Source: an uncultured Oscillospiraceae bacterium (GTDB taxonomy: Bacteria > Bacillota > Clostridia > Oscillospirales > Oscillospiraceae). From it: DNA of 39,751 bases. The stretch's first letter is position 1; each line of letters starts with the position of its first letter. Under the pieces are notes generated by a model. It saw nothing but the letters and a program-made list of their open reading frames with translations. It searched no databases and was not told where the DNA came from. This document shows positions 7,316 to 39,751 of this stretch, one piece after another. The position numbers were made by a program, and so were the translations under genes. The stretch lies in NCBI GenBank assembly GCA_947629775.1, contig CANRFA010000012.1:1-39751 (forward strand), in the 5' to 3' direction.

Positions 7316-8566
7316 ATGGGAGCTGTGCAGACAGAGTATCGGAAGAAGCTGCGTTTCCCGGCTGCTCCAGCCCCCGTGTCGGAGGAATCAGTCCGGCGGC
7401 AGCTCTCGGTTGCCGTCGGGGCGGAGACCTTCCGGCACAGGGATCCCATCTATCACCTGACGGAAAGTTTCCGACAGACCTTTGATCGGATCGGACAGAT
7501 CCGCGCGCAGGGGCAGGAACCGGATCTCGGCGCCATGACCCGGCTCTACTTCATGCGCGAGGAGACGCCCGGTCTGACGGAGGCGGGCGGAGAGCGGATG
7601 GCCGGGTCTCCCGGTCAGGAAACCCGGGAAACCGATGAGGCCCTGCCCGACGCGACAGACATGTCGTCCCGGTATGCGCCCCGGGATCCCAGCCAGCGCC
7701 TGATGGACCGCTTCGCCGAGGTCGCCTTCCAGCGCGGAAGCCTTTCGGCGGCCGTGATGCGGGGACAGGGAAAGATGATGCTCTTTTCCTGTCTGAACCG
7801 GTCGGCCGGGCAGGAGCGGAGCAGACAGGTGCGGGAGCGGATGCTGTTTCAGCGCAGTTCCTCCCACAGCAGAATCTCCGGTTCCCAGGGGACCCTGGGG
7901 ATTACGAACAAGGGCTTTGCGGAGAGCGCCGTGGGAATTGTTGTGGACGTGCTGAAAAACGCCCGGCAGGCCCTGGACTCCTTTACCGCCCTGGCGGAAG
8001 GGAAGGGCGCCGGATCGGGGACGCTTCAGAAGCAGTATCCCTTTCTGACGGACAGCCGGGAGCAGAACCTGCTGGCGGAGTACCGCGGCAGACTGGCCCA
8101 GCTGAAAGGCCCGGGAACGGAGGAGCAGCGCGCTGTTCTGACGCGGGCCCAGGAAAAGGTGGAGGCCGTCATCCGGAAGAAGGCGCAGATGCGGGAGGAC
8201 TTCCTGCAGAAGCTGCGCTACCTCTCCCAGTCGGCCGCCGCGGCGGAGTCCGAGTTTTCCTCGAAGGATTTCCTTCAGGAAGCGCTTCGGGCCATGGGAG
8301 AAGAAGAGGAACCCGAAGAGATCGAGCCGCCGGAGGATGGCGATGGCGGCGGCGATCCCGGATCGGACGCGGATCCCATGGGGGATTTCCCGCCGTCGGA
8401 AGACGGGGAGGAATTCCTTCCGGAGGACGACGCGGATCGCAGCGCTGACGCAGACACGGACGGAGGTGTTCGCCGTGGCCGTGAAGGAGCAGGAAACCCG
8501 CCGGCAGGAGGGCCCGGAACAGAAAACCCGGAGCCTCCAGGCGGAGGACCGGGGCCGAACGGCTGA
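7316..8566 (+). CDS. unknown injection-system accessory protein, helical with acidic Gly/Pro-rich tail
   Basis: I do not recognise a family. The 416-residue protein is hydrophilic, with no signal peptide or membrane segment. Residues about 20-60 and 120-330 are predicted helical by composition and include a Lys/Glu/Gln-rich stretch likely to be coiled coil (about 255-320). The last 90 residues are Asp/Glu/Pro/Gly-rich and probably disordered. I chose ATG 7316 because AGGGAGG lies 5 bases before it; an in-frame ATG at 7205, coupled to the leader peptide, would add 37 unstructured residues. It is the first long gene of the operon and its 3' end overlaps the next gene by 92 bases in another frame. 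Together with the YbjN-like gene downstream it could be a cargo or adaptor with its chaperone; that is only an inference. Confidence 0.65.
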   Translation: MGAVQTEYRKKLRFPAAPAPVSEESVRRQLSVAVGAETFRHRDPIYHLTESFRQTFDRIGQIRAQGQEPDLGAMTRLYFMREETPGLTEAGGERMAGSPGQETRETDEALPDATDMSSRYAPRDPSQRLMDRFAEVAFQRGSLSAAVMRGQGKMMLFSCLNRSAGQERSRQVRERMLFQRSSSHSRISGSQGTLGITNKGFAESAVGIVVDVLKNARQALDSFTALAEGKGAGSGTLQKQYPFLTDSREQNLLAEYRGRLAQLKGPGTEEQRAVLTRAQEKVEAVIRKKAQMREDFLQKLRYLSQSAAAAESEFSSKDFLQEALRAMGEEEEPEEIEPPEDGDGGGDPGSDADPMGDFPPSEDGEEFLPEDDADRSADADTDGGVRRGREGAGNPPAGGPGTENPEPPGGGPGPNG

Positions 8567-8909
8567 GCAGATCCCCCTCCAGGTCTTTGCCCGACTGCTG
8601 AGCGGGCAGACCGACCTGACGCAGCTTTCCACCTCTCTGCTGCGGGAGCTCAGCGAGGCCGTTGGCAACAGCGGTCTGGCGGAGATTCTGCAGGGAAGCG
8701 GGAGCGGAGTCGGCACGCCTGCCCTGCACACCGTAGAGGATCCCGGTACGGGGGCAGAACCTCCGGCCAACGGGATCCGGACCGTATCCCCGCTTCTGAC
8801 CGCCCCGGCGGAATGGAGCGGAGAGAGCGGCAGCTGGCCCCGGTCGGCGGATCCCGGAGCGCTTCTGGAGCGCGGGACGGACGGAGCTGACACGGCGTGG
8901 TCGTGGTAA
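8475..8909 (+). CDS. small unknown protein
   Basis: I do not recognise this 144-residue protein. It starts at GTG 8475, six bases after GGAGGTG, within the end of the preceding gene, a 92-base out-of-frame overlap. Residues about 30-75 look helical (LQVFARLLSGQTDLTQLSTSL and following), and the remainder is Gly/Pro/Ser-rich and probably flexible. The open frame extends further upstream to 8337, but no start with a ribosome site is seen there. Its position between a coiled-coil protein and a YbjN-like protein, all tightly packed, suggests the three act together. Confidence 0.5.
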   Translation: MAVKEQETRRQEGPEQKTRSLQAEDRGRTAEQIPLQVFARLLSGQTDLTQLSTSLLRELSEAVGNSGLAEILQGSGSGVGTPALHTVEDPGTGAEPPANGIRTVSPLLTAPAEWSGESGSWPRSADPGALLERGTDGADTAWSW

Positions 8910-8911
8910 GG

Positions 8912-9370
8912 ATGGCGGAAACGATGGCGAAATTTCAGATCGGAGACCAGGCGGACCCTGCGGAGGAACTGGAGTTTCTGCTGCGCTACAATGCATTCGA
9001 TTATCAGAGAGAGGGCCAGCGGTTCCGGCTGGTCTTCTCGGAGCGCGGACGCAAGTGGGAGACCATCTGCGCCTGCATGGAACAGGCTGTTCTGATCTAT
9101 GGCTACTACCCCTTCCGTGTAGCGGACCGGGCGCGGGCCACGGCCCTGTGCGAGGAGATAAACCGCCAGGTGCTGTTCGGCAGCATGATGACATGGAAGG
9201 AACGGGTGGTGTTCCGCACAGGAGCGGATCTGTTTGACGCCTACAGCGCCTACGAGCACATCGGGCGGGCGCTGGAGTACAACGCGTCGGTGGTGATGCG
9301 CTTCTGGGAAGGGTTGGCCGGCTGTGCCAACCGGAAATCAGGAGATCCTGACAGAACGTCAGACTCATAA
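8912..9370 (+). CDS. YbjN-like (secretion-chaperone fold) protein
   Basis: The 152-residue protein resembles the YbjN/type III chaperone-like fold: an N-terminal helix, a sheet region in which RFRLVFSERGRKWETICACME is followed by YYPFRVADR, a central ALCEEINRQVLFGSM helix leading to a strand with WKERVVFRTGADLF, and a final long helix with RALEYNASVVMRFWEGL. The family assignment comes from this pattern and was not searched. Start choice is uncertain: GTG 8897 and ATGs at 8912 and 8924 are in frame, and none has a strong ribosome site. ATG 8912 lies two bases after the previous stop, so translation may be coupled. In this context it could be a chaperone for a cargo or structural protein. It ends 77 bases before the sheath gene. 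Confidence 0.6.
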   Translation: MAETMAKFQIGDQADPAEELEFLLRYNAFDYQREGQRFRLVFSERGRKWETICACMEQAVLIYGYYPFRVADRARATALCEEINRQVLFGSMMTWKERVVFRTGADLFDAYSAYEHIGRALEYNASVVMRFWEGLAGCANRKSGDPDRTSDS

Positions 9371-9403
9371 TATCGTCGAAAGACGGCTGAAACTGAGCGA
9401 TAG

Positions 9404-9447
9404 AAAGGAGGATTGTCCCCAAACTTCAGCGTGGGGACAAACGAAAC
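9404..9447 (+). promoter_or_regulatory. distant Shine-Dalgarno bridged by a hairpin before the sheath gene
   Basis: A perfect AAAGGAGG (9404-9411) lies 36 bases before the sheath ATG at 9448, too far to act directly. Between them GTCCCCA (9415-9421) pairs with TGGGGAC (9432-9438) around a 10-base loop. Folding removes 24 bases and leaves an effective spacing of about 12. No closer ribosome site is present. The hairpin may thus bring the site to the start codon and control the most abundant component. Confidence 0.6.
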
Positions 9448-11208
9448 ATGGCAGAGTATTTGCATCCAGGCGTATACGTGGAAGAGTACGATTCCGGCGC
9501 AGTACCCATGCAGGGCGTCAGCACCAGTACGGCGGGGTTCATCGGACTGGCGGAGCGGGGACCCGTGGTGGGGCAGCCCCAGCTGGTCACCAGTTTTGCC
9601 GATTACAAGCGCATGTACGGCGGCTACCTCAGCGAGGCCCGTGCCGGGAACGGACGCTTCCTGCCCTATGCGGTGGAGCAGTTCTTCCTGAATGGTGGCT
9701 CCCGGGCCTACATCATGCGTGTGGCCGCGGACGGAGCGAAGAATTCCTCCGCGAAGGCCGGCGTTCTGAAGATCACGGCTGCGAACCCCGGCGAGTGGGG
9801 CGACAAGATCCGCGTGACCATCACCCCGACTTCCAAGGCCAAGACCCAGGTGCTGGCCGCTGCCGGCGCCGACCTGACCCTGAAGAACGCCGACGGCTTC
9901 AACGCCGGCGACGTGGTGGAGCTGTTTGACGGCAAGAACAAGGGCTATGCCACCGTCAAGTCCACCCTGGACAAGGTTGTCACCCTGGACGCCGCGCCCA
10001 CTGTGAACGCTGTGGATACCAGCGTGGGCACTCCCAAGTACATCCGCACCTGCGAGATCACGGTCTCCGTCAAGCTGGACGAAACCGTGGAGACCTTCGC
10101 GGACGTGAGCCTGAACGCGGCCGCCGATAACTTCGTGGCCGTCAAGGCCGCCAAGAGCGAGCTCGTCTCCTTCGAGGTGCTTCCCGCCGCCATTCCCGCT
10201 CCGGCTCCCGCTCCCGAGGGCAAGGAGAAAGCGACCGCCGCTCTGGCTCCCGCTGCCGCCAGCATCGTTCCCTTCGCGCAGATCGGCGGCGTGGACGCCC
10301 CCGTGGTGGTGGCCCTGGCCGGCGGCTCCGACGGCGCGATGAACAAGGCGAACGCCACCATGTACCTCGGCGAGGACAACGGCCCCGGCAGGCGCACCGG
10401 CCTGCAGTCCTTCATCGAGAACAACAACGTCTCCATCATGGCGATCCCCGGCGTGGTCGACCCCAACGTCCAGTCCACTCTGATCGCTTTCTGCGAGAAC
10501 CGCGCCAGCTGCTTCGCGATCCTGGATATGCCCGCTGACATGAAGAAGACCAACGAGCTGGCCCAGTTCCGCGACATGTACGACAGCACCTACGCCGCCA
10601 TCTATCACCCCTGGCTGGAGATGCTGGACAACGGCAGCAAGCGGCCCGCCTACTTCCCGCCCTCCGGCGCCATGGCCGGCATCTATGCCCGCACCGACAC
10701 CGATCGCGGCGTGCACAAGGCTCCCGCCAACGAGATCGTCCGCGGCTGCACCGGCCTGTCCTGCAGCTACAACGACGCCGAGCAGGACATCCTGAACCCC
10801 ATCGGCATCAACCTGATCCGTGCCTTCACCGGCCGCGGCATCCGCGTCTGGGGCGCCCGGACCATCAGCTCCAACGGTCTGTGGAAGTACATCAACGTCC
10901 GCCGTCTCTTCATCTATGTGGAGCAGTCCATCAAGACCAACACCAACTGGGTTGTCTTCGAGCCCAACAGCGAGGCGCTCTGGGGCCGTGTGACCCGCAC
11001 CATCGAGTCCTTCCTGGCGACCTGCTGGCGCGACGGCGCTCTGGCCGGTTCCACGCCCGAGCAGGCCTACTTCGTGGAGTGCGGTCCCACCACCATGACC
11101 CAGGACGATATCGACAACGGCCGGCTGATCTGCAACATCGGCATCGCGCCCGTGAAGCCCGCCGAGTTCGTCATCTTCCGCATCACCCAGAAGACCGCTT
11201 CCGAGTAA
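9448..11208 (+). CDS. contractile tail sheath protein (Afp2/Pvc2-like)
   Basis: This 586-residue protein forms the contractile outer cylinder that drives the inner tube through a target membrane. The N-terminus MAEYLHPGVYVEE and the STAGFIGLAERGP segment are classic sheath signatures. The C-terminal half (from about residue 290) has the standard sheath core, including IPGVVDP, the long RRLFIYVEQSIK helix region, EPNSEALWGRV and the terminal linker strand APVKPAEFVIFRI. Residues about 95-275 look like an inserted surface domain with a Pro/Ala-rich linker (IPAPAPAPEGKEK). Codon use is strongly biased to C-ending codons here and in the tube gene, suggesting high expression. It is the only sheath gene in the window, whereas Afp and PVC have three. 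Confidence 0.96.
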   Translation: MAEYLHPGVYVEEYDSGAVPMQGVSTSTAGFIGLAERGPVVGQPQLVTSFADYKRMYGGYLSEARAGNGRFLPYAVEQFFLNGGSRAYIMRVAADGAKNSSAKAGVLKITAANPGEWGDKIRVTITPTSKAKTQVLAAAGADLTLKNADGFNAGDVVELFDGKNKGYATVKSTLDKVVTLDAAPTVNAVDTSVGTPKYIRTCEITVSVKLDETVETFADVSLNAAADNFVAVKAAKSELVSFEVLPAAIPAPAPAPEGKEKATAALAPAAASIVPFAQIGGVDAPVVVALAGGSDGAMNKANATMYLGEDNGPGRRTGLQSFIENNNVSIMAIPGVVDPNVQSTLIAFCENRASCFAILDMPADMKKTNELAQFRDMYDSTYAAIYHPWLEMLDNGSKRPAYFPPSGAMAGIYARTDTDRGVHKAPANEIVRGCTGLSCSYNDAEQDILNPIGINLIRAFTGRGIRVWGARTISSNGLWKYINVRRLFIYVEQSIKTNTNWVVFEPNSEALWGRVTRTIESFLATCWRDGALAGSTPEQAYFVECGPTTMTQDDIDNGRLICNIGIAPVKPAEFVIFRITQKTASE

Positions 11209-11258
11209 GATCCACTGATGTTTCGAGTACGGAATTAATAAGAAAGGACGAGTGAGCA

Positions 11259-11744
11259 ATGGCAATTAACTATCCCTATAGAGTATTCCGGTACCAGGTA
11301 TCCACCGGCGGCATCGCCCGGGCCGGCTTCTCCGAGGTCTCCGGCATGAACATGTCGGTGGCGGCCGTGGAGTACCGCGAAGGCGACGACCTGCGCAACA
11401 CCCCCCGGAAGCTCCCCGGTCTGACGACCTTCGGCAACGTGACCCTGCGCTGGGGCGTCAGCGACGACTCCGACTTCCTGACCTGGCTGCACAGCGTGGC
11501 TCCCGACAACACCGCGGGCCCCACCAGCATCACCCGTTTCGACGTGACCATTACCCTGATCGACGACGCCGGCAACCCGTCCGGCCCGGTGTGGACCCTG
11601 ATCAACGCGTGGCCCGTCACCTACACCATCCCCGACCTGTCCGGTATGGGCGGCGAGGTTGCCATCCAGTCCATCGAGCTGTGCCACGAGGGCATCTGGC
11701 TGACGACCCCCGGCAGCATGGCCGGCACGCCTTCGCCCATCTGA
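11259..11744 (+). CDS. inner tail tube protein (Afp1/T4 gp19-like)
   Basis: This 161-residue protein is the likely main building block of the rigid inner tube. The N-terminal YRVFRYQV strand, the GFSEVSGMN segment, the YREGDDLRNTPRKLPGLTTFGNVTLRWG hallmark (given as residues about 41-68), and the LINAWPVTYTIPDL segment all match the gp19/DUF-type tube family of eCIS and contractile phages. The start has AAAGGACGAG upstream. It lies 50 bases after the sheath, so both are probably on one transcript, and it shares the sheath's strong codon bias. A perfect 38-base palindrome follows its stop, separating it from the low-copy assembly genes. Confidence 0.95.
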   Translation: MAINYPYRVFRYQVSTGGIARAGFSEVSGMNMSVAAVEYREGDDLRNTPRKLPGLTTFGNVTLRWGVSDDSDFLTWLHSVAPDNTAGPTSITRFDVTITLIDDAGNPSGPVWTLINAWPVTYTIPDLSGMGGEVAIQSIELCHEGIWLTTPGSMAGTPSPI

Positions 11745-11764
11745 TACGCGCTGATATACGCCTT

Positions 11765-11802
11765 CGTATGGCTATGCGGACTTAAGTCCGCATAGCCATA
11801 CG
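11765..11802. repeat. perfect 38-base palindrome (19-bp arms) between tube and chaperone genes
   Basis: The arms run 11765-11783 and 11784-11802, with centre ACTTAAGT. One flanking T-A pair and a T-G pair can extend the stem. No T-tract follows on the + strand; instead seven A residues lead into the AAGGAG ribosome site of the next gene. It is therefore unlikely to be a classic terminator and more likely an RNA stem that protects the sheath-tube message or lowers downstream expression. A DNA-binding site is the alternative. Confidence 0.85.
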
Positions 11803-11821
11803 AGTAAAAAAAGGAGACAAT

Positions 11822-12181
11822 ATGCAGACGGAATTTGAGTTCATGCTCCCCCGGGGATATGTGGACGCCAACGGAGACATCCACCGGAAGGGAACCATGC
11901 GTCTGGCGACGGCTGCGGACGAGATTCTTCCTCTGCGGGACCCCCGGGTCCAGCAGAACTCCTCCTATCTCTCCATCATCCTGCTGTCCCGGGTGATCAC
12001 GAAGCTGGGGACGCTGCCCTCCATCAACAATAAGGTCATCGAGGACCTGTTCACCATGGATCTGGCGTACCTCCAGGATTTCTACCAGCGCATCAACATG
12101 TCGGAGCGCCCCTCCTATACGGTGCGGTGCCCCCACTGCAATGAAAGTTTTGAGGTGCCGCTGGATTTTTTGTTGAGCTAG
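11822..12181 (+). CDS. tail-assembly-chaperone-like protein (zero-frame product)
   Basis: This 119-residue protein sits directly after the tube gene, where P2 gpE, lambda gpG and their kin are found. The start is backed by AAAAGGAG. It begins with a short strand segment (EFEFMLPRGYVDANGDIHRKGTMRLATAADEI is spread over residues about 4-35), then has helices with DPRVQQNSSYLSIILLSRVI, and ends with a CPHC pair and FEVPLDFLLS. Homologous genes occur in eCIS clusters; I name it by position and pattern, not by a search. Its last codons contain a T TTT TTG slippery heptamer (12166-12172), seven bases before the TAG, with a GAGGTG element upstream. A -1 shift would fuse it to the next open frame, giving a 181-residue product. 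Confidence 0.8.
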   Translation: MQTEFEFMLPRGYVDANGDIHRKGTMRLATAADEILPLRDPRVQQNSSYLSIILLSRVITKLGTLPSINNKVIEDLFTMDLAYLQDFYQRINMSERPSYTVRCPHCNESFEVPLDFLLS

Positions 12182-12366: not shown

Positions 12367-12380
12367 GGTGAGACAGAACT

Positions 12381-12902
12381 GTGGAAAACGGATTGCCGCC
12401 CCGTAAATCTCCGGAGCCGCCGAAGCCCGCCCGGGAGAACGACCCCTACCGCATGTTCCGGTTCCGGGTCAAAATGAGTGGCGGCGGCTTCCTGGACTTC
12501 GGAAAAACCACGGAAGCTGCCTTTTCTCAGTGCTCCGGGATCAGGGCCTCCACCGAGGTGGTGCGGGTACGCACCGGCGCGGATATCCGGGGCGTACAGG
12601 GGATTATTCCTTCCATTGTGACCTACAGCAATCTCACCCTGTCCAAGGGTGTGGTGGCCAACGGCAAGTTTCTGGACTGGGTATTCGGCTGCCTGCCGAC
12701 CAATCTGATGGGCCCGAAAAAACCCAAGCGCAAGACCATCGAAATCTCGGTCCTGAACGACGCGGGGAAAGAGGGCGTTACCTGGACGCTCTACGGGGCC
12801 TATCCGGTGGGCTACGAGCTGGCCAGTCTGGACGCGAGCCAGGACGGCGTGCTGATGGAGACCCTGGAGTTCGCCTATGTGGGGCTGAAACGGTCCACGT
12901 AG
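12381..12902 (+). CDS. second tail tube paralog (Afp5-like)
   Basis: This 173-residue gp19-family protein has a Pro-rich N-terminal arm of about 20 residues before the PYRMFRFRVKM strand, then AAFSQCSGIRASTEVVRVRTG, TYSNLTLSKGVV and TLYGAYPVGYELASLDAS, all aligning with the main tube protein. The GTG start at 12381 has GAGGTGA nine bases upstream. By analogy with Afp5 and T4 gp54/gp48 it may be a tube initiator joining the baseplate hub to the main tube. It starts 14 bases after the frameshift extension. Confidence 0.88.
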   Translation: MENGLPPRKSPEPPKPARENDPYRMFRFRVKMSGGGFLDFGKTTEAAFSQCSGIRASTEVVRVRTGADIRGVQGIIPSIVTYSNLTLSKGVVANGKFLDWVFGCLPTNLMGPKKPKRKTIEISVLNDAGKEGVTWTLYGAYPVGYELASLDASQDGVLMETLEFAYVGLKRST

Positions 12903-12923
12903 GAACGGAGAAGAGGTGGCCAT

Positions 12924-13364
12924 ATGATCGATCAGACACTGATGGAGGATTTCGCGTCCGGCGCGTTTTTCGATGTGCTTCTGGGTGGAAATCCTCTGGG
13001 TATGAGCGGACGGTTCACGTCGGTTTCCGGCCTGGGCATGCAGTTTGAGTACGAGACCGTGATGGAAGGCGGCAGCATGTATCCCCGCTATTTCTTCAAG
13101 AACGCGGTACCGCAGACGCTGGTTCTGGAGCAGGGAACCGTCACCACCGTGGATACATTTTCTCTCTGGGTGGACCTGGTGAACAGCGGCGTGGACGTTC
13201 CCCTGGCGGGAACCATTACGCTCTGCAACCACGAGGGGAGGCCCATGCGCACGTGGGTGATCGCGGGAGCGCACATTGTCCGATACGTCGGCCCCAGCCT
13301 GGACAGCAACCAGGCGCAGCTGGCGGTGAATCGAATTGAGCTTCTCTATGGAGGATGCACCTGA
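12924..13364 (+). CDS. third tail tube paralog (initiator-type)
   Basis: This 146-residue protein is another gp19-like tube relative. Its F-F-D-V-L-L strand, FTSVSGLGMQFEYETVMEGG segment, LVLEQGTV and WVIAGAHIVRYVGPSLDSNQ follow the family pattern. It is shorter than the main tube protein and ends in an RIELLYGGCT strand typical of initiator-type members. The start follows AAGAGGTGGCC. Its stop overlaps the ribosome site of the giant downstream gene, so both are translated in series. Confidence 0.87.
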   Translation: MIDQTLMEDFASGAFFDVLLGGNPLGMSGRFTSVSGLGMQFEYETVMEGGSMYPRYFFKNAVPQTLVLEQGTVTTVDTFSLWVDLVNSGVDVPLAGTITLCNHEGRPMRTWVIAGAHIVRYVGPSLDSNQAQLAVNRIELLYGGCT

Positions 13365-13378
13365 GGAGGACGCGCCAG

Positions 13379-20548: not shown

Positions 20549-20569
20549 CGCCGGAAGGAGGCGAGCGGG

Positions 20570-21295: not shown

Positions 21296-21324
21296 CCGGG
21301 CAGAGGGCGAAGGGAGCGGGAAAT

Positions 21325-23237: not shown

Positions 23238-23271
23238 GTTACAGGCATAAACCGGCGAGGAGGCGAAGAGA

Positions 23272-26600: not shown

Positions 26601-26640
26601 GACGCGTCCGTTCAGGGGAACAGAAGGGAAGTGAGGATCT

Positions 26641-28725: not shown

Positions 28726-28768
28726 GCCGGATCACATGGATCACATTCTTACAGAGCGGTAAGTTCTG

Positions 28769-28831
28769 TCGTTCCTGTCTGGAATGAGCCAGGCGTACGT
28801 TCGGGCGGAAGCGACCGGCTTCCGGGAACGA
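28769..28831 (+). other. three-way-junction RNA fold in an intergenic gap
   Basis: The closing stem TCGTTCC (28769-28775) pairs with GGAACGA (28825-28831). Inside are two hairpins: GTCTGG (28777-28782) with CCAGGC (28789-28794), and CGGAAGC (28806-28812) with GCTTCCG (28818-28824). A small CTTAC/GTAAG stem (28748-28763) precedes it. No T-tract follows. It fills the longest gap in the structural operon and ends about 25 bases before the next start. It may be a processing, stability or regulatory element. Confidence 0.5.
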
Positions 28832-28856
28832 CCTGTTCGAGCAAGGGGGGAAAGGG

Positions 28857-29963: not shown

Positions 29964-29967
29964 GACG

Positions 29968-31740: not shown

Positions 31741-31759
31741 GCGGCGGGGCCCGCCTTAC
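31737..31759 (+). other. hairpin at the end of the structural core
   Basis: GTAAG plus GCGG pairs with CCGC plus CTTAC around a three-base loop, with a two-base bulge. It includes the stop codon of the fibre-like gene and has no T-tract. It may modulate expression at the boundary between structural and membrane genes. Confidence 0.3.
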
Positions 31760-31785
31760 ATCGCGGAGAGGAGAGAAGAAGGCAT

Positions 31786-32523
31786 ATGAACACGCTTTTG
31801 CTCAGAGGGCAGTATAAAGTGACCTGCGTGCTGTATGCCGAAGGTCCGTACGCCGCTTTGCTGGCGGTGGATATCCTGAGCCGCGAGAAAACGGAGTATC
31901 TGCTCAATGTGTACGAGGGCGCCTACGTAAAGCCCTATATCCGCAGCTATAACGCGCTTCGCAACTGCGACAGCTTTCGTGAACTGTTTGTCTGGAAGGA
32001 AAGCCTTGTGGTGGTGTTTCAGTTCCGCCAGGGCACGCCCATCGACCAGGTCTTTTATAAAGGCGCCCAGGTTGACTGGCACTTCCGGATGAAGGCGGCG
32101 GCGGACCTCTTCCGCCAGCTGCTGCTGCTGGCGGACACCCCGCCCGAAATCGGCTGCGCGGTTCTGCTGAGCGACAATATCCAGGTCTTCCCTCTGGAGG
32201 ACTGTGTAAGCGTCAATTACATGATCCGACCCCTGGGGGAGATGAATCAGCGGGAACTGGTCTTTCTCCTGTCTGACCAGATCCAGAAGGTGCTGGAACT
32301 GCGATGGGGGTCTCCCCTGGTGGAGCGGGATTTTGTCCGGGAGCTGAGCTCGGGCACCCTGAAGACCGTAGTAGGGGCCTATGGAAGGTGGGCCCAGGCG
32401 GAGCCGGTGATCCGGGCTGCCTATGAGGGACTGGAGAAACGGACGTTTGTCGGACGGATGCTGCATCTCGCGCTGCTGAATCTGAAAGACTGGTTCCATA
32501 CCCGTTTTCCGAAGAGACGTTAA
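31786..32523 (+). CDS. unknown protein, possibly a degenerate kinase-like domain
   Basis: I do not firmly recognise this 245-residue cytoplasmic protein. Its N-terminus (residues 8-45: a YKVTCVLYAEGPYAALLAVD strand pair, then EYLLNVYEG) looks like a protein-kinase N-lobe with the invariant Lys replaced, and a VNYMIRPLGE segment near residue 145 may mark the hinge or activation region. No HRD or DFG motif is visible. A basic C-terminus ends with RFPKRR. It precedes the membrane-receptor gene by 13 bases. A pseudokinase-like scaffold, as in EssB of type VII secretion, is one reading; a novel fold is equally possible. Confidence 0.5.
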   Translation: MNTLLLRGQYKVTCVLYAEGPYAALLAVDILSREKTEYLLNVYEGAYVKPYIRSYNALRNCDSFRELFVWKESLVVVFQFRQGTPIDQVFYKGAQVDWHFRMKAAADLFRQLLLLADTPPEIGCAVLLSDNIQVFPLEDCVSVNYMIRPLGEMNQRELVFLLSDQIQKVLELRWGSPLVERDFVRELSSGTLKTVVGAYGRWAQAEPVIRAAYEGLEKRTFVGRMLHLALLNLKDWFHTRFPKRR

Positions 32524-32536
32524 GGGGAGCTGAACG

Positions 32537-35098
32537 ATGGGGCGAGGTAAAAAAATCAGCGTATTTGTGCTTATGCTGGTGGCGCTGACGCTGCTGTTTC
32601 TGGTGGCCTTTCCGAGCTTCTGGCGGGACTGTGTCCACTCCGTGGCCACAGGCCGGCAGATTATCCAGTACACCCACGCGTCCGCCGGCACCGATGGAAC
32701 CGTCTATGCGGTCGGCATAAAAAACGACGACTGGATTCTGACGCAGGGCGAGCTGGGGGGCGGACGCAAAAGCATACGGACTCTGGAGAGTCTGGGAATC
32801 ACCGATGTCTTCCGAGTGGATGAGATCTTCGCCTGTTCCAACGGGGGTGTGGTCATGAGCATCTACGAGGAGAAGGCGGAGATGATGCTCCGGCTGTACT
32901 ATGTCGCTCCCGGAGAGCGCAAGGCGCATATGGTGTACAGCGCGTCCTGCGAGACGAACGGCATGGTGGAGATCGACGGTCTTACGGAGCGGGGCGGAGT
33001 CGCTTCTTTCCTGCTTCGGAAAGACGGCGGCGGCGCGGCATACAGCTATGTGCTGGGCGGAGAGTCGGCCGGGCAGTTCGCCTATATTACTCCCATCCAG
33101 GCGGACGCGTCTCTGTTTGTGCTGCCCGACGGCCAGCTGGCTTCGGTCTCCGGAAACCGGTTTGCCATTGATACAAACGGTCTGAACCTGCCGACGCAGA
33201 TGCGGTGCGAACAGGCCTGGCGCCTGACGGACGGAGCCTGCCTGATCGACAGCACGGACGGAACCCTGTGGCGGGCGGATATGGTCACCGGAAAGTGGAT
33301 GGAGCTTGCCTGCCTGACCGACCTTGCGGATCAGAACATTATTTCCTGGAACGTTTCTCCGGATGGCGCCGCGGTCTTTCTGACAGAAGAGGGCGTGCTG
33401 CTCTATCTGTGGGATGGATCCTTCCAGGATTACTCCTCCGCGCTGTATCGGCCAAGCTGGATGAGCCTTCTCCTCCTGATCCTGGTAGAAGTCGTTCTGA
33501 TCGTGATTTCTCTGGGTGTCTGGTATTTCCTGTGCGAATACCGCAGGTTCTCGCTTACGATCGTGGCCCGCAAGGGCTTCATGCTGGCCGTGATTCTGAC
33601 GATTCTGACCGGGAGCGAGATCCGGCTTGTCGTGAATCCCTGGTTTGAGATCATCGCGGAGCATGAGGCGCAGCACTATCTGCAGCTGGCGGTTCTGGAT
33701 GTGTCCATTCTGCCGGATGCCACGGCCATGGATTTTGAGCTGACCGATGGGGAGTTCTACTGGACAGAGGGCGGGTTCAGAAGTTCGGCGGCCGCGCTGG
33801 GTCTGGGATCGAGCTGGCGGGAGTGCGCCAGAGAAGCTCTGGACGAAGGCGAATCGTTCCTGAGCCACACCCTGGATGGGGTCGGCTATTACAGTTACTT
33901 CCTCCGCAGCGGCGACACGACCGTGCGGGTTCTGCAGATGGCCAACGCGGGCTACCTGGATGAAATGTTCGCAGGCAATGTGATCATAGCCTTCGTCCTC
34001 TGGGTGATCGCGCTTCTGGTCCTTTTCACCGTGCTTGGCGTCATGAACGGCATTCGTTCCCGACTGCGCAGGGTCACGGACGGGATGGATGCCATTCGCT
34101 CCGGCAACTATCATGTAGAGGTCGTGGATCGGACCCGGGACGAACTCGGAGCCCTGGCCGATTCCGTGAACGATCTGGCGGAGCTGATGCAGGAGAACCA
34201 GGAAGAAAATGCCCGTCGGGGCGATGTGTACGCCAAGTTCCTGCCCGCGCAGATTGCCCAGCTGCTGGGCGTCAACTCCGTGGAGGATATCAACAAGCAG
34301 TCCTTCTCCTCCCGCCGGATGACCATCATGCACGTGAACTTCACCTTTGACGAACGTGTTTACGAGACCCGTTCGAAAGCGCTCTTTGACAATATCAACG
34401 AGATTACCGAGGCCACCGCCAGAATCATCTCCAACAAGGGCGGTACGATTCTGAGCTTCTCCCACGAAGGATTTGACGCCTTCTTCCCCATAGGCGACGA
34501 CGCCATCCGGACAGCCGCGGACGGCACCATCACCCGGACCTGGGACGACGCGCCCATCAGCGCCGCTGTGGTGATCTGCCAGGAGGCCACCTCCATCAAC
34601 ACCGCCCGGCTGCAACGCCACATTTCTCCCGTCAGACTCCATATCGCTCTGGACGAGGCGGAAGTGATGCTGGGCGTGGTCGGCGATGAAACCCGGATGC
34701 AGGCCACGGCGGTTTCCTCCAGCTTCAGTACGATTCGGATTCTGGCCGGGCTGTTCAGCCGGTTTGAAGCCAGCATTCTCTGCACGGAGAAGATCGAGAA
34801 GCGGGCCAGCCAGTACAGCCGGCGCTATATCGGCAAGGCCCACGACGGTTCGGAACTGATGCGGGTCTACGAGATTTTCGACGGAGACGCCCAGTCCGTC
34901 CGGCAGAGCAAGATTGAGATGGAACGGGCGTTCGCGGATGGCCTGTATACCCTGTATGCCGGCGATTACACCGCGGCCAAGCGGACCTTCATGGAGATCT
35001 CCCATCGGAACAGCTCCGATGGCGCGGCCAGGTTCTATCTGTATCTCGCGGACCGCTTTGAGAAGGAGCCTCCCGAGGAGCCATCTCTGGACGGATGA
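32537..35098 (+). CDS. membrane receptor: beta-propeller-like sensor, HAMP, degenerate class III cyclase domain
   Basis: The 853-residue protein has a membrane segment at residues 8-27, an extracytoplasmic repetitive beta region (about 45-300) resembling a propeller, further segments near 306-332 and 340-365, a second outer domain, and a last segment at about 482-504. A HAMP linker follows (RSRLRRVTDGMDAIRSGNYH and on, 507-552). The cytoplasmic part (565-790) has adenylate-cyclase landmarks: VYAKFLPAQIAQLLG, GVVGDETRMQATAVSSSF and RRYIGKAHDGSELMRVYEIF. The first metal-binding Asp appears as Asn (MHVNFTF) and the second position reads HEG, so catalysis is doubtful. A helical TPR-like end follows. 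Being inside the operon, it may sense envelope state and signal to the particle. Confidence 0.82.
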   Translation: MGRGKKISVFVLMLVALTLLFLVAFPSFWRDCVHSVATGRQIIQYTHASAGTDGTVYAVGIKNDDWILTQGELGGGRKSIRTLESLGITDVFRVDEIFACSNGGVVMSIYEEKAEMMLRLYYVAPGERKAHMVYSASCETNGMVEIDGLTERGGVASFLLRKDGGGAAYSYVLGGESAGQFAYITPIQADASLFVLPDGQLASVSGNRFAIDTNGLNLPTQMRCEQAWRLTDGACLIDSTDGTLWRADMVTGKWMELACLTDLADQNIISWNVSPDGAAVFLTEEGVLLYLWDGSFQDYSSALYRPSWMSLLLLILVEVVLIVISLGVWYFLCEYRRFSLTIVARKGFMLAVILTILTGSEIRLVVNPWFEIIAEHEAQHYLQLAVLDVSILPDATAMDFELTDGEFYWTEGGFRSSAAALGLGSSWRECAREALDEGESFLSHTLDGVGYYSYFLRSGDTTVRVLQMANAGYLDEMFAGNVIIAFVLWVIALLVLFTVLGVMNGIRSRLRRVTDGMDAIRSGNYHVEVVDRTRDELGALADSVNDLAELMQENQEENARRGDVYAKFLPAQIAQLLGVNSVEDINKQSFSSRRMTIMHVNFTFDERVYETRSKALFDNINEITEATARIISNKGGTILSFSHEGFDAFFPIGDDAIRTAADGTITRTWDDAPISAAVVICQEATSINTARLQRHISPVRLHIALDEAEVMLGVVGDETRMQATAVSSSFSTIRILAGLFSRFEASILCTEKIEKRASQYSRRYIGKAHDGSELMRVYEIFDGDAQSVRQSKIEMERAFADGLYTLYAGDYTAAKRTFMEISHRNSSDGAARFYLYLADRFEKEPPEEPSLDG

Positions 35099-35124
35099 CG
35101 CGATGACGGAAGGAGGGACAGAAT

Positions 35125-35502
35125 ATGCCTTCTGCGCTCAGAGATGCGCCTGATACCGCCAGGCAGCCGGAGGACTGGACTCCGGATGAGGAAGGCGGGA
35201 TCACGGCCTGGGCCAACCAGGTGTGGGTCAATTCGGACCAGGCAAGGTCCGTGGGCCAGGAAGAAGTGAACGAAGGGGTCTATGTCTTCTCCCGGGAGGA
35301 GACGCAGGCCCGGGAGCGTACCGGCGGAGAACTGTTTACAGCCCCGGATGGCTACATCCGCAGAAGCCCGGTGCAGAAGCTGGTGATTCCGGAGGACTAC
35401 TACCGCAAGCGGACAAGGAAGATCATTCTGATCGCCTGCGGGGTCATTCTCGCGATTGTGGCGCTGAATCTGCTCTTTCAATTCGGGGTGATCCGCTTCT
35501 GA
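35125..35502 (+). CDS. small C-tail-anchored membrane protein
   Basis: This 125-residue protein has about 95 hydrophilic, acidic residues, then a basic YYRKRTRK and one hydrophobic helix (IILIACGVILAIVALNLLFQ) up to the C-terminus. It would thus expose its N-terminal part to the cytoplasm. I do not recognise the soluble part. The start has AAGGAGGGACAG upstream. It lies between the HAMP-cyclase and the MORN membrane genes and probably works with them, for example as a docking factor for the particle. Confidence 0.7.
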   Translation: MPSALRDAPDTARQPEDWTPDEEGGITAWANQVWVNSDQARSVGQEEVNEGVYVFSREETQARERTGGELFTAPDGYIRRSPVQKLVIPEDYYRKRTRKIILIACGVILAIVALNLLFQFGVIRF

Positions 35503-35536
35503 GCCCACGTACAGAACGAAACTGAGGGGGATGGAC

Positions 35537-38464
35537 ATGCTAAGCGAACTGATCCGTCGGCTGATCGCGGCTGGTGGCGTTGTGTTCCGGACCATACGGG
35601 CCTATTTCGCGCGAATCATCCAGAACGGGAGCGCGCGCTTTCGGAATGCCACCAGCCTGACGCGCCAGGCGTCCAAGCTGACTCCGGGTCTGCTGAAGAA
35701 GGTCACGGACGTGGGCAAAAAGCCCACGAAACGGGAGGACTATATCGAGACGCAGCAGCTGTTCATTGCCAAGTCGCTTATCATCCTGCTCGTCGTGGGG
35801 ATCGTTGTCGGGGCGATGCTGATCTACTTTGTGATCTGGCCCTGGTTGGTCCGGATGTTCTTTACCGCGAAATTCTGGTATCAGGATCCCAAAACGGAGA
35901 CCTACTCCGGGAAGGTCATCCTCTTTTACGATGAGGAAAAGGAAAACCGGATGTTCAAGGGGCGTCTCAGAGAGGGCGCCATCCAGGGGAAGGGCGAAGC
36001 ATACGATGAGAACGGCCTTCTCCTGTATGTCGGCGACTATGTGGATGGTCTGTACAGCGGTCAGGGAGAGCTCTACGAAGCGGGCAGCCTGATCTACAAA
36101 GGCGGATTTGAAGGAGGCCGGTTCCAGGGGCAGGGCCTGGCCTACGAGAACGGGGAGCTGGTCTACGAGGGAAATTTCTCCGGAGGAATGTACAGCGGGC
36201 AGGGAAGGAAATTCGAAAACGGGAATGTGCACTATGAAGGCTCCTTCGACCAGGGACTCTATCACGGAGAGGGCAGCCTTTACACCAGTTCCGGGGAACT
36301 CAAGTACGAGGGAGAATTTTCTCTCGGCCTGCGAAGCGGAGAAGGGACGGAGTATCTCCACGGCAAGCGCCTCTATAAGGGGCAGTTCGAGGACGATCTC
36401 TACAACGGAGAAGGCGTGCTCTACGACGAGGAGGTCGGGGTGCGTTACCGCGGCAGTTTCCTGGACGGCGTCTATTCCGGCAGCGGCGTTCTGACGCTGA
36501 ACAGCGGAGCGACCATACAGGCGGAATTCGAGCAGGGAAATCCCATTGGAACCGCCAGTTGCTTCCTGGATGGAAAACTGTATTATGAGGGCAGCATGCG
36601 CCAGATGGTGCCGGCAGGAACGGGTACCCTGTACAATTCCTCGGGGGAGGCGATGTACACGGGTCCCATGGAGTACGGTGTGATCGACGGCGGGAAACTG
36701 CTGGGAACTTCCGCTGCTGATCTGCGGGACATGCTGACAGAAAGCGAGGAGCAGACGTACGACCAGGGCTTTGTCATTGCATGTGAAGCTCTTGGTTTTG
36801 CTGCGTTTTGCAGCTATGCGCAGGAGGACGCTGACGCCCAGGTCTATGCGGTCTATCTCTCCGTCCCCCAGGACAACAGGGCCCTTGCCTCTCTGATGTG
36901 GCCCAGCACGGACGACTTTGAAGTGCTTACGCTGGATGACGTGGTGCCTCCGGAACGGGCCGAAGGCGGGAACGCTGCGACGGATTTCCTGATTCCCTCT
37001 CCTGTGGATCTGGGGCAGCGCGCCTGGTGCCAGCCGTTCCTCTGGGAGGATCATACCCTGAACCTGTGGTGTATTTCCGAGGAAGATCCCGTTGTTCTGG
37101 CCGAATGGAGGCAGGGAGAACAGATCCCTGTAACCGAACCGGAGGAGGAAGGGACCATTACCTCCGAGCAGCGGGTGGACGCCCTGATCGATCAGCTTGG
37201 CATCCTTTCGGATCGTCTGCAGGAGGAAGGCGGAGCGGAGATTCCCGCAGAGGATGCCGGACTTCCTGGCGAGGATATGCTCGGAGCAGTGGATGAGGAG
37301 AGCGTCTATGCGGTTCTCGCAGCCGGATTGAGCTACTTTGAACATCAGCAGCTGTACACGGTTGCTCAGGAGAATCTGGAGATCTGCCAGTCCATGGCAG
37401 AGAAGGAAAAGTCCCTCGTGGATGTGGGGAAGGGAGATCCGGACCGGCTGGCGGAACTGGAGGACCAGGCCACCCAGCTGGACGGACAGATTGGTACATA
37501 CACGGCTCAGATGCGAAAGGAAGCCCGGACCATCGAAGATGCTACCGGTGGTTCCGTCAGCGATTACGATCTGGCCAGTCTGCTGGTTTACTTCGATGTC
37601 AGCTCGCTGGATATTGAGGCGCTGCAGGATGCAGCCGTTCGGAAGGCCCAGGCCGCCGCGGAAGATCAGGCCATGAAGGAAGCGGCGGAGGAAGCGGAGC
37701 GGAAGGCGGAAGAAGAGGCCATCCGCAAGGAGACCGAAGAGGCCGCCCGGAAGGCCGCAGAAGAAGCAACACAGAAGGCGCTGGAAGAAGCCGCGAAGAA
37801 GGCAGAAGAGGAAGCGGCAAAGAAAGAGGAAGAAGAGGGAAAGAATCCGGACGGTTCCAGCAGTTCTGCCGGCGACAGTTCGGGTGCAGGTTCGGACAGC
37901 TCCGCTGGGGACACCTCGAGTGCGGGCTCGGACAGTTCAGCGGGCGGCTCTGACAGTTCCGGCGGAGACACCTCCGAAGAGCAGAAGCCGGGCAGTTCCC
38001 AGCCGGGCGCGGTTTCGGAAGGCGGATCGGCTCAGGAGGGCATGATCCGCCGGGGCAGTTCCTCCCAGGTGATTGCGGTGCCGGAGGGCGGCTATGCCCA
38101 GCCGGGGAGCGGTTCCGGCGTGACGGTACCGGAAGTTGTGGTCCCGGAAGTGGATAAGAAAGCCCTTCTGGACCAGCTGGAAGACATGCTGCTGGATCTG
38201 GAGCTGTCTTACCAGAAGATCGAGACGGCGATGAAGAATTATGACAACGCCATGACCGGTCTGGAGGACCTGGAAGGTCGAAACGCTGTGGGCGATACCA
38301 CGAAGGAAGAGGTGCAGACCGCCCGGATGGAGGCCAATGACCGCAGGGGCGCTCTGTACTCCGCCATCGTTGCATTCTCCAGACAGGCCGCGGCGCTGGA
38401 TGAGTTTACGGACGGCGAGCTGTCCGGTCAGCAGGGATGGCTGTCCGCAGTTCTGGCGAATTAA
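35537..38464 (+). CDS. MORN-repeat membrane protein with coiled-coil and Ser/Gly-rich C-terminal region
   Basis: This 975-residue protein has a basic amphipathic N-terminus, one long hydrophobic segment (about 75-105), then at least nine MORN-type repeats (about 130-395) of the YEGxFxxGxYxGxGxxxxxxG kind, for example YEGNFSGGMYSGQGRKFENG. Residues about 400-690 are a mixed domain. An Ala/Glu/Lys-rich helix (705-768), likely coiled coil, leads to a Ser/Gly/Asp-rich linker and a second helical end (870-975). By the positive-inside rule the MORN part would be outside the membrane. I chose ATG 35537, six bases after GAGGGGG; an ATG at 35531 is too close to that site. MORN repeats bind lipid or serve as scaffolds. 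It could anchor the machine or span the cell wall. Confidence 0.82.
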   Translation: MLSELIRRLIAAGGVVFRTIRAYFARIIQNGSARFRNATSLTRQASKLTPGLLKKVTDVGKKPTKREDYIETQQLFIAKSLIILLVVGIVVGAMLIYFVIWPWLVRMFFTAKFWYQDPKTETYSGKVILFYDEEKENRMFKGRLREGAIQGKGEAYDENGLLLYVGDYVDGLYSGQGELYEAGSLIYKGGFEGGRFQGQGLAYENGELVYEGNFSGGMYSGQGRKFENGNVHYEGSFDQGLYHGEGSLYTSSGELKYEGEFSLGLRSGEGTEYLHGKRLYKGQFEDDLYNGEGVLYDEEVGVRYRGSFLDGVYSGSGVLTLNSGATIQAEFEQGNPIGTASCFLDGKLYYEGSMRQMVPAGTGTLYNSSGEAMYTGPMEYGVIDGGKLLGTSAADLRDMLTESEEQTYDQGFVIACEALGFAAFCSYAQEDADAQVYAVYLSVPQDNRALASLMWPSTDDFEVLTLDDVVPPERAEGGNAATDFLIPSPVDLGQRAWCQPFLWEDHTLNLWCISEEDPVVLAEWRQGEQIPVTEPEEEGTITSEQRVDALIDQLGILSDRLQEEGGAEIPAEDAGLPGEDMLGAVDEESVYAVLAAGLSYFEHQQLYTVAQENLEICQSMAEKEKSLVDVGKGDPDRLAELEDQATQLDGQIGTYTAQMRKEARTIEDATGGSVSDYDLASLLVYFDVSSLDIEALQDAAVRKAQAAAEDQAMKEAAEEAERKAEEEAIRKETEEAARKAAEEATQKALEEAAKKAEEEAAKKEEEEGKNPDGSSSSAGDSSGAGSDSSAGDTSSAGSDSSAGGSDSSGGDTSEEQKPGSSQPGAVSEGGSAQEGMIRRGSSSQVIAVPEGGYAQPGSGSGVTVPEVVVPEVDKKALLDQLEDMLLDLELSYQKIETAMKNYDNAMTGLEDLEGRNAVGDTTKEEVQTARMEANDRRGALYSAIVAFSRQAAALDEFTDGELSGQQGWLSAVLAN

Positions 38465-38475
38465 GAGGAGACATT

Positions 38476-39066
38476 ATGGCAGATTATACGGCTTTGGTGG
38501 AGGCAGGAAACGCGCTGGTGGAGCTTTTGCGGGATCACCTGACACCGGAACCCATCAGCAAGCGGGAACTGATCTCCCTGTGCTCCCCCTATGAGAGCGA
38601 AAACAACCAGATGACGGTGTACCTCTTCCATCTGGAAGAGGACGCCCCGAGCAGCATGCAGGGCTATCAGCAGATCTCCCGCGACATGGAGCAGATGCGT
38701 CCCACGGAACTGACCGCGAATTTCCTGATTACGGCCCACTCGAAGGCTCCTGCCCAGCTGCGGGAGGCGGACCAGTACCGGATGATGGGCGCGGCCATTC
38801 AGGCCATCAAGGACATGCCGATTCTCGACGACCGCTATCTCAACGGTTCCATGGCCCAGAGTCCGACAAGGGTGCGCCTGAACGTGGAGCGGCCCAATCT
38901 GGATCAGATGATGAAGATCTGGAATAACACCACCAAACCCTACAAGCTCTCCATTGTAGTGAGGATGTCCGGAATCAGCATTGAATCCAAGAGGACCCGC
39001 AGGATCCGTCGGGTTACCGACATTGAGATCGGCGTCGGTCAGAGACAGAGGAGGAGCACGCCGTGA
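38476..39066 (+). CDS. Pvc16/DUF4255-family protein (eCIS tail terminator type)
   Basis: The 196-residue protein shows the DUF4255 pattern: MADYTALVEAGNALVELLRD, then ISLCSPYESENNQMTVYLFHLEED, a LTANFLITAHSKAP strand and a central helix AIQAIKDMPIL. Residues around VRLNVERPNLDQMMKIWNNT and YKLSIVVRMSGI complete the fold. In Afp and PVC this family (Afp16/Pvc16) caps the tube-sheath end and fixes particle length. DUF4255 marks eCIS and not phage tails. The ATG has AAGAGGAG five bases upstream. A four-base GTGA overlap joins it to the next gene. Confidence 0.92.
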   Translation: MADYTALVEAGNALVELLRDHLTPEPISKRELISLCSPYESENNQMTVYLFHLEEDAPSSMQGYQQISRDMEQMRPTELTANFLITAHSKAPAQLREADQYRMMGAAIQAIKDMPILDDRYLNGSMAQSPTRVRLNVERPNLDQMMKIWNNTTKPYKLSIVVRMSGISIESKRTRRIRRVTDIEIGVGQRQRRSTP

Positions 39067-39751
39067 TCCGCATTCACACCAATGCCGTTGTGCGGGTGCT
39101 GGACGGTTTTACCGGACTGGCCCTGGCCCCTTCTGCCGTTCGCTTTCGGGTAGACGGTTCACCGTTTACTCCAGTGGTCAAGCCAGGCGGGTACTATGTG
39201 CTCACCGGTCTCCCGGTGGGGGAACACGAAGTCGTTCTTCAGGCCAACGGGTTTGGCCCCGAACGGCTGACCATTGTCGGCGGGATGCGGGAGATGGCAG
39301 ACCTTCTGGTGACGCTGAAGCCAGGAGAAGGGTATCGGTTCCAGTCCTCCGTTACCTGGATGACGATTCACATCCGGACGGCGAAGAAAGAGCCCGCGCC
39401 TGGAAAGCGGGTCTGGATCGCGGCGAAGAACCCTATCTATGAACTGCGGATCGCCCAGGCTACCCTCGCGAAGGGAGCGACTACGGGACGGCTCTTCTAT
39501 CCGCCTTCCATGCGGGCGGTCTCCCTGCCCAGGCACTTCCTTGTGGTGGACGGGGAGCGCTCCGAGGTCGTCCTCCTGAACGAGCTGGACGAGGCCCAGT
39601 TTGCGGACGGTCTGGTCAACGACCACAAGCGTGGGCGCTGCCTGTACCCGGCCCAGGTTTATACATCCAATGAGGACGGAGATATCCGCGCCGTCTTTCA
39701 GAACCCGCTTCCCCTGGAGATTCTGGTGGAAGGGGAGAAGAAGCCCGTTTC
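39063..39751 (+). CDS. beta-rich protein with carboxypeptidase-regulatory-like N-terminus, cut by the window end
   Basis: An open frame starts at GTG 39063, overlapping the DUF4255 stop as GTGA, and stays open for 229 codons to the end of the window. The first 85 residues look like a carboxypeptidase-regulatory or prealbumin-like beta-sandwich (VRVLDGFTGLALAPSAVRFR, then GYYVLTGLPVGEHEVVLQAN). A second domain with FLVVDGERSEVVLLNELDEA follows. In some eCIS clusters such a domain is attached to Pvc16-type proteins; here it is a separate gene. It may be a surface-exposed cap or fibre part. Its full length is unknown. Confidence 0.75.
   Translation, partial: MIRIHTNAVVRVLDGFTGLALAPSAVRFRVDGSPFTPVVKPGGYYVLTGLPVGEHEVVLQANGFGPERLTIVGGMREMADLLVTLKPGEGYRFQSSVTWMTIHIRTAKKEPAPGKRVWIAAKNPIYELRIAQATLAKGATTGRLFYPPSMRAVSLPRHFLVVDGERSEVVLLNELDEAQFADGLVNDHKRGRCLYPAQVYTSNEDGDIRAVFQNPLPLEILVEGEKKPV

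Follow-up and report, generated by a model that had tools for sequence, protein, structure and literature searches.

A membrane module with a putative pseudokinase and a putative pseudo-cyclase receptor in contractile injection clusters of Clostridia

Contig CANRFA010000012.1 of an uncultured Oscillospiraceae bacterium (assembly GCA_947629775.1), analysed whole as a window of 39751 bases that reaches both contig ends, is by Pfam and NCBIfam matches the site of an extracellular contractile injection system (eCIS)-type cluster, whose genes lie on the + strand from position 7205 onward. Between the baseplate genes and the DUF4255 gene of this cluster lie four genes for what look like a pseudokinase (PSK), a receptor with a dead cyclase domain, a tail-anchored (TA) protein and a MORN-repeat protein. 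These genes are linked to the contractile injection system (CIS), keep a conserved order and accompany one sheath subtype, and PSK and the receptor have predicted enzyme folds that have lost catalytic residues. We hold with very high confidence that the module is co-inherited with the CIS. From these observations we infer topology, docking, sensing and triggering and, on balance, favour a reading in which a relay of dead enzymes docks the baseplate at the producer's membrane and gates firing.

The four module proteins

The module and its immediate neighbours are as follows.

28857-29963, + strand: Cis12-like protein, baseplate periphery
29953-31740, + strand: Cis13-like protein, baseplate periphery
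31786-32523, + strand: putative pseudokinase (PSK), 245 residues
32537-35098, + strand: receptor (REC), 853 residues
35125-35502, + strand: TA protein, 125 residues
35531-38464, + strand: MORN protein, 977 residues (PF02493, E 1e-12)
38437-39066, + strand: DUF4255 or Pvc16 N-terminal domain protein (Cis16; PF14065, E 2e-23)

Four + strand open reading frames (ORFs) lie between the end of the Cis13-like gene (31740) and the start of the DUF4255 gene (38437). The gaps around them measure 45, 13, 26 and 28 bases, and the MORN and DUF4255 genes overlap by 28 bases. These coordinates confirm the first-pass annotation, a model's reading of the sequence, which had placed four co-directional genes with short gaps between a fibre-like (Cis13-like) gene and DUF4255. 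A scan that we judged uninformative gave no promoter-like site in 20500-39751 and no + strand terminator-like site in the module gaps.

According to an AlphaFold2 model (pLDDT 94.2), the PSK has a two-lobed kinase fold; the nearest solved folds listed are PknA/PknB and the kinase-homology domain of Rv3910. The earlier description of this protein as kinase-like holds for the fold but not for catalysis: the β3 Lys, the HRD Asp and the DFG Asp were each found in 0/32 PSK sequences at the aligned column. Two of the 32 (from genomes G119 and G105) have an Asp one column ahead of the HRD Asp. Judged by these losses, the protein looks like an enzymatically dead pseudokinase.

The window's PSK has no membrane segment, and orthologues in other lineages have a C-terminal one (PSK-TM). 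The TA protein has a single membrane segment at about residue 100. Its profile, which was built from window-type loci and could miss a divergent TA, matched at 0/12 loci with PSK-TM versus 37/40 without. It was found only where the PSK has no anchor of its own or, at locus L069, lies off the contig.

The receptor comprises a membrane segment, a propeller-like ectodomain, two membrane segments, a second small ectodomain and a fourth membrane segment, followed by a HAMP domain (residues 505-549; Pfam, E 4e-8), a putative pseudo-cyclase domain (about 590-784) and C-terminal helices. The four predicted membrane segments agree with the earlier description of a multi-pass receptor. In NCBIfam, histidine-kinase models match the receptor over the HAMP region alone; the receptor of one relative gives a weak hit to TetR_C_46 (E 0.005). 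The cyclase domain has the class III fold (cyclase homology domain). Class III cyclases employ a pair of metal-binding Asp residues, a substrate-binding Lys, and an Asn and an Arg that act on the transition state. Among 55 CIS-linked receptors (52 distinct, one row gapped), none had the first catalytic Asp, both metal-binding Asp residues or the Lys; the second Asp was present in 20, the Asn in seven and the Arg in eight. By contrast, five CIS-unlinked relatives had the first Asp, the Lys and the Asn in all five, the second Asp in four and the Arg in three. The HAMP domain and cyclase fold of the first-pass annotation were borne out, and an intact cyclase, with the first Asp in 0/55, was not. 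The CIS-linked receptor looks like a pseudo-cyclase, and a cAMP-producing receptor was rejected on its active-site residues. Because the catalytic residues are lost in the CIS-linked copies, we dropped the idea of active signalling.

The window's MORN protein begins with an N-terminal segment; a membrane segment near residue 84 precedes the MORN repeats, and the C-terminal part is a coiled coil that is TolA-like below the cut-off. As with HAMP, the MORN assignment agreed with the earlier one. The protein is conserved in relatives. In most copies the membrane helix, which precedes the repeats, falls at roughly residues 70-121; in G105, G119, G139_C17 and G677 it falls at 17-29. Positive charge weakly favours an N-in, C-out orientation. 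MORN is followed by a separate gene in G067 and G097, and by an OEP-type gene in G079, G193, G282 and G352 (PF02321; E 1e-4 to 9e-12, two just over the cut-off). TolC-like OEP genes lie beside MORN in Clostridia CIS clusters at L048:11059-13071, L053:10702-12777, L114:18109-19998 and L112:9201-11255.

These neighbours, together with the TolA-like coiled coil, bear on the idea that the module is an export device, in which MORN and OEP/TolC-like coiled coils form a path through the wall and particles exit without lysis. We consider this improbable: none of the module proteins of the window matched OEP in Pfam, and an export device leaves the receptor and PSK unexplained.

Linkage to the contractile cluster and to one sheath subtype

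Four close receptors, used to scan named genomes, led to 40 loci, three of which (L059, L085 and L073) apparently duplicate the contigs of L050, L036 and L039, respectively. The hosts are Clostridia wherever a group is named, one being given only as 'uncultured bacterium'. Carriers include Flavonifractor An10, An82 and An306, Pseudoflavonifractor capillosus An827, Faecalibacterium An121 and Agathobaculum massiliense. At 40/40 loci the genes, as far as present, were collinear on one strand in the order Cis12, Cis13, PSK, receptor, TA, MORN, DUF4255. Thirty loci were complete, eight lose end genes at contig ends and two have one or more genes missing. The last two are L095, with no recognisable Cis12, and L073, with neither PSK nor TA; among the eight, L069 (3.7 kb) has no CIS gene.

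Found by their receptors, these loci cannot give a rate of receptor absence; the 16 sampled PSK loci can. MORN was present at 16/16 of them and the receptor at 14/16, partially so in G392 (no propeller part) and G556 (cyclase part only); none was found in the fetched stretches of G139_C17 and G677. PSK and MORN thus appear to be the widest shared core seen, with the receptor, present in most sampled clusters, added to it. Beyond the group of the window, gene order is less strict. The receptor follows DUF4255 in G119, G105, G392 and G556. In G677, which lies outside the class, Cis12, Cis13, PSK-TM and MORN are followed by one further gene and then DUF4255. In two genomes outside the class, PSK, MORN and DUF4255 are adjacent.

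Genome-wide searches covered two of the module genes, PSK and the receptor, in samples of 197 genomes from the order, 291 from the class and 259 from the phylum, which overlap (G000, the window's own genome, is in all three) and for which Fisher values ignore relatedness. DUF4255 was present in 11/197, 11/291 and 8/259 genomes, respectively. In the order sample the receptor search matched 80 genomes, only 10 of them past residue 640 (E 6e-7 or better); the others end no later than residue 625, within the HAMP region or shortly after it. Matches beyond the HAMP region thereby fell in 10/11 DUF4255 genomes versus 0/186 others (Fisher 6e-16). PSK matches with E below 1e-50 were likewise confined to DUF4255 genomes: 9/11 versus 0/186 in the order, 6/11 versus 0/280 in the class and 2/8 versus 0/251 in the phylum. 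At a looser threshold of 1e-10, the counts were 6/11 versus 5/280 (class) and 4/8 versus 0/251 (phylum). Two weak PSK matches in the order sample (E 1e-6 and 8e-4) were in genomes without DUF4255, as were all 15 further matches in the class sample (E 1e-17 or worse, five at 1e-10 or better).

HAMP domains, MORN repeats and kinase folds are each common, and ordinary membrane and signalling genes could sit in the cluster by chance, as operon neighbours. We find this hardly credible, since it is contradicted by the conserved order (40/40 loci) and by the restriction of close PSK to DUF4255 genomes; the adjacency of PSK, MORN and DUF4255 in two out-of-class genomes also opposes it. A prophage was likewise considered and rejected: 83 viral-contig stretches matched a pattern, none of them a receptor relative. 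In PHROGs, PSK and TA had no match, and the matches to the receptor, MORN and Cis12 were to families of unknown function or baseplate.

The module also tracks one sheath subtype, and the classic clostridial eCIS sampled have no module. The sheath of G058, the eleventh DUF4255 genome of the order sample, is distant, and 40 kb of sequence there contained no module gene. Seven further loci (in G329, G389, G391, G430, G570 and G657, and the second locus of G221) had sheath matches of E 2e-138 to 3e-169 and no module gene in their fetched stretches. Matches of E 6e-254 or better came from G352, G282, G412, G619 and the first locus of G221. The sheath profile includes the G058 sheath, and the G639 contig is too short to tell. 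In a maximum-likelihood tree of 16 sheaths, a single branch (support 100/99) separated 12 module-linked sheaths from four others, G058 forming a long branch; G105, G114, G392, G139_C17, G391, G430, G556, G570, G619, G657 and G677 were outside the tree. G221 has two eCIS loci, one of each subtype (L109-L111 and L126). G619 is mixed, with a window-type sheath, a full-length receptor beside DUF4255 and no PSK found.

The first-pass annotation's 'built-in membrane and signalling module' is upheld by the close PSK and the gene order, which stay with the CIS, and by the single sheath subtype. Its question of whether the genes occur independently of the CIS received a divided answer for PSK and receptor: close PSK was seen only with DUF4255, and distant PSK and strong receptor relatives were also seen elsewhere.

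Docking at the producer's membrane and alternative readings

Published systems offer precedents for membrane contact near the baseplate. In the thylakoid-anchored cyanobacterial CIS, headless like that of the window, contact is made at Cis12 and the fibre-like Cis13, as described in the available part of PMC8894136; a like position of the Cis12/Cis13 region is proposed for the window. That system is anchored by a Cis12 extension and a tail-fibre-like protein, whereas the window has separate membrane proteins. In Streptomyces, according to the portion of PMC12237407 consulted, the CisA gene lies downstream of the baseplate genes, at the usual site of tail fibres, and the protein is proposed to recruit particles to the membrane and to sense. 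The window resembles the CisA system in its Gram-positive host and in having a membrane protein gene downstream of baseplate genes. It differs in domain make-up, which sets its genes apart from CisA as described there: CisA is a single bitopic protein whose N-terminus is disordered and whose C-terminus resembles solute-binding proteins, and the window has PSK, MORN and, as is usual, a propeller-HAMP-pseudo-cyclase receptor. For haloarchaeal CIS acting as a type VI secretion system (T6SS), the sections of PMC11566945 seen suggest that Cis11/12/13 or a membrane protein provides the membrane link. There, as here, a putative membrane anchor gene accompanies one phylogenetic group of CIS and is missing from the other; that anchor, Hbor_38620, has six predicted membrane helices, and those sections mention neither a pseudokinase nor a receptor with a cyclase fold.

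Because the module stands directly behind Cis12/Cis13, like the published membrane-contact region and the position of CisA, we propose docking on PSK and MORN with gating by the receptor. A C-terminal helix of its own would fasten the PSK to the membrane; in the window's family the separate TA probably does so instead. On the cytoplasmic side, PSK together with the pseudo-cyclase and helices of the receptor would bind the baseplate periphery (Cis12/Cis13, encoded just upstream), so that a loaded, extended particle would be held at the producer's cytoplasmic membrane. The MORN domain, probably outward-facing, may span or grip the envelope outside. The propeller-like and second ectodomains of the receptor may sense an envelope or extracellular cue; movement of the HAMP domain would then pass to the dead cyclase, which would make no nucleotide but change its contacts, releasing docking or firing. 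We have moderate confidence in docking of the particle at the membrane and less in cue-driven firing.

Several observations weigh against this proposal. The topology of the module derives from hydropathy and a weak charge bias, and in two of nine PSK-TM proteins the charge difference is one or zero. In G067 both the PSK anchor and TA are missing, and the receptor was not seen in L137 or in the fetched part of G139_C17. G124 (L073) has no PSK or TA and keeps the rest of the module, and the module locus of G221 has receptor and MORN on the strand opposite the CIS genes, with no PSK found. In the class sample the receptor matched at E 2e-30 or better in 16 genomes, seven with DUF4255 and nine (9/280) without; five of the nine were inspected, and 0/5 had a CIS profile match within 20 kb. 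There are full-length receptor relatives with live cyclase motifs and no CIS gene in the fetched stretches. Distant PSK relatives (E 1e-10 or better) occur in five class genomes without DUF4255, and in two of these five the distant PSK adjoins a membrane protein that matches the receptor ectodomain only.

At L039 (about 4200-6300, G124), reading by eye showed that all that survives of PSK is a short PSK-like start fused to the N-terminus of the receptor; G124 seems to have lost PSK and TA and to have retained receptor and MORN.

We rejected the idea that PSK is unique to CIS, as a wider CIS-unlinked PSK-domain family exists. Four class genomes encode PSK-domain proteins with a membrane helix (E 1e-16 to 1e-17) away from CIS genes in the fetched stretches (only 4.6 kb for G207), three of the four having LysM-like tails by eye. 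The fifth class match, in G383 (E 1e-10), is an ordinary kinase with intact motifs. Stand-alone pairs lie away from CIS genes at L128 (8024-9178 with 9305-11251) and L130 (1186-3156 with 3264-4427), where a PSK-type protein with a membrane helix and, by eye, a LysM-like tail adjoins a membrane protein consisting solely of the receptor ectodomain. Because such unlinked pairs exist, the partnership of PSK and propeller may predate the link to the CIS and may have a different role. The pair is a possible stand-alone ancestor, and recruitment of the relay from stand-alone signalling parts is the likeliest reading.

EssB/YukC (type VII secretion) and TraF (type IV secretion) resemble PSK as pseudokinases with a non-catalytic kinase fold and a membrane span in a Gram-positive export machine, to judge from the available text of PMC13037476. 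Unlike EssB/YukC, PSK members have no listed Pfam YukC match, and their nearest folds are those of PknA/PknB and Rv3910. YukC was not among the Pfam families listed for 10 PSK members (E up to 1) or in the fold lists, from which a related fold may nonetheless be missing, and the profile matched ordinary kinases. The expected EssB/YukC-type identity was kept as an analogy only.

In a further reading, the module controls production, receptor and PSK forming an envelope-stress relay, and particles are released freely as in Afp and PVC. A HAMP receptor is a usual input device, and both PSK and the receptor have stand-alone relatives. In L036 the AAA gene, and in L062, L068 and L088 an AAA-sized ORF, is followed by a gene for a SpoIIE phosphatase. 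Regulators adjoin clusters in published eCIS surveys, as reported in the part of PMC8213781 consulted. We nevertheless consider production control rather unlikely: Pfam and NCBIfam searches of the four module proteins brought up no clear domain for DNA binding, phosphotransfer or anti-sigma function, a dead kinase and a dead cyclase suit a contact-based relay better than an enzymatic output, and MORN and TA have no obvious regulatory part. Because the SpoIIE genes follow the AAA position, expression control may be encoded nearby.

The SpoIIE-type genes are L036:17908-19998, L068:18741-20768, L062:19408-20940 and L088:17936-19444; their proteins have one HAMP match over the cut-off and one weak, and the phosphatases may serve partner-switch control.

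Extending the docking proposal, it is possible, though we say so tentatively, that a Gram-positive T6SS counterpart evolved separately from eCIS, with the extended syringe docked beneath the membrane of the producer on a PSK/MORN platform; a cue read by the receptor, its cyclase having changed from enzyme to mechanical switch, would fire it either outward or into the producer itself.

Remaining cluster genes, related systems and significance

The other features of the window are as follows.

3522-4856: Der, housekeeping, left of the cluster (NCBIfam model match)
4860-6568: PlsY and GpsA, housekeeping, left of the cluster (named by reading translations)
7205-8566, 8337-8909 and 8897-9370, + strand: three small upstream ORFs
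9448-11208, + strand: contractile sheath (PF04984, E 9e-22; PF17482, E 7e-19)
11259-11744, 12381-12902 and 12924-13364, + strand: three gp19-type tubes (PF06841, E 5e-37, 1e-27 and 1e-16)
11822-12181, + strand: small conserved CxxC protein, between tube genes
13355-20548, + strand: 2397-residue Ala/Pro/Gly/Ser-rich protein, probably disordered, with a conserved C-terminal tail (composition and length comparison)
20570-21295, + strand: CIS_tube and LysM protein (Pfam)
21325-22452, + strand: GPD hub (Pfam)
22452-23237, + strand: OB spike (Pfam)
23272-23685, + strand: gp25 (Pfam)
23682-28725, + strand: two baseplate-J-type wedge proteins (PF04865, E 1e-5; TIGR02243, E 1.5e-55)
39063-39751, + strand: start of the next gene (ORF), cut at the contig end

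The matches to sheath, tubes, CIS_tube and LysM, GPD, OB spike, gp25, Baseplate_J and DUF4255/Pvc16_N were all at or over Pfam cut-offs. Cis12 and Cis13 were assigned from NF053768 (E 1e-24), TIGR02242 (E 4e-15) and NF053767 (E 8e-23, residues 16-156 only); NF053768 and NF053767 were below their full-length cut-offs, and TIGR02243 and TIGR02242 over theirs. These matches bear out the headless contractile machine (sheath, tube, hub, spike, wedges, DUF4255) of the first-pass annotation. The AAA ATPase is known only from relatives, because the contig stops before its place; downstream of DUF4255, it has 744 residues in G139 (PF00004, E 2e-33) and 638 in G105 (E 8e-29). In the window's own genome (a 95% complete draft), TssM/IcmF (PF06744) gave 0/1, the control being positive in Escherichia coli and TssJ and TssL not searched. 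No RNA family or tRNA was found in the window.

ORF 8897-9370 is weakly YbjN-like (Pfam YbjN, E 0.009, below the cut-off), and in G139 relatives of it and of the ORF at 7205 are also upstream of the sheath. The CxxC protein, a conserved gene product with no Pfam match over the cut-off, scored near-equally in the module-linked and classic eCIS subtypes. At the place of the 2397-residue protein, between the tube and LysM genes, seven relatives have proteins of 150 to 1095 residues, and most relatives share a C-terminal tail with an ERRR.G-type end motif; it is possibly a spacer, length or cargo protein. The gene at the position of the cut ORF in L061 (16295-17020) has a CarboxypepD_reg match below the cut-off, and in the same region (L061:19945-21690) a MatE transporter is fused to an HATPase_c_2 domain.

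Clostridial eCIS were listed by Sarris et al. 2014 (PMC4122934), and eCIS were surveyed in 2021 (PMC8213781). Like these eCIS or phage-like translocation structures (PLTS; Afp and PVC, with the clostridial members given in the part of PMC4122934 seen), the window has sheath, tubes, LysM hub, spike, gp25, wedges and DUF4255, with AAA in relatives. Unlike them, it has four membrane-module genes after the baseplate genes. No such module is named in the available parts of PMC4122934 and PMC8213781, and the words HAMP, cyclase and MORN are absent from the main text of PMC8213781. Two CIS papers, PMC8894135 and PMC6748791, are listed with 'adenylate cyclase'. In mostly open-access literature, preprints lying outside it, we found none that pairs 'contractile injection system' with 'MORN repeat' or 'pseudokinase'. 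As far as these searches go, the machine is of a known kind and its membrane module, with pseudokinase and pseudo-cyclase, is new. The pseudo-enzyme nature and the wider distribution go beyond the first-pass annotation, whose 'envelope-coupled' variant 'with its own sensor' may prove a fair description of the module.

Together, the data suggest that in the Flavonifractor-related gut bacteria examined the membrane of the producer holds and triggers the syringe, which is not simply released. For the holding, triggering or release of headless CIS in bacteria with a single membrane, CisA of Streptomyces was the sole worked example found. Named isolates carry the module, so the question of docking is directly testable, and the live (unlinked) and dead (CIS-linked) forms of one cyclase-fold receptor provide a natural comparison. 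The stand-alone pseudokinase-propeller pair is a source from which such a module could have been drawn.

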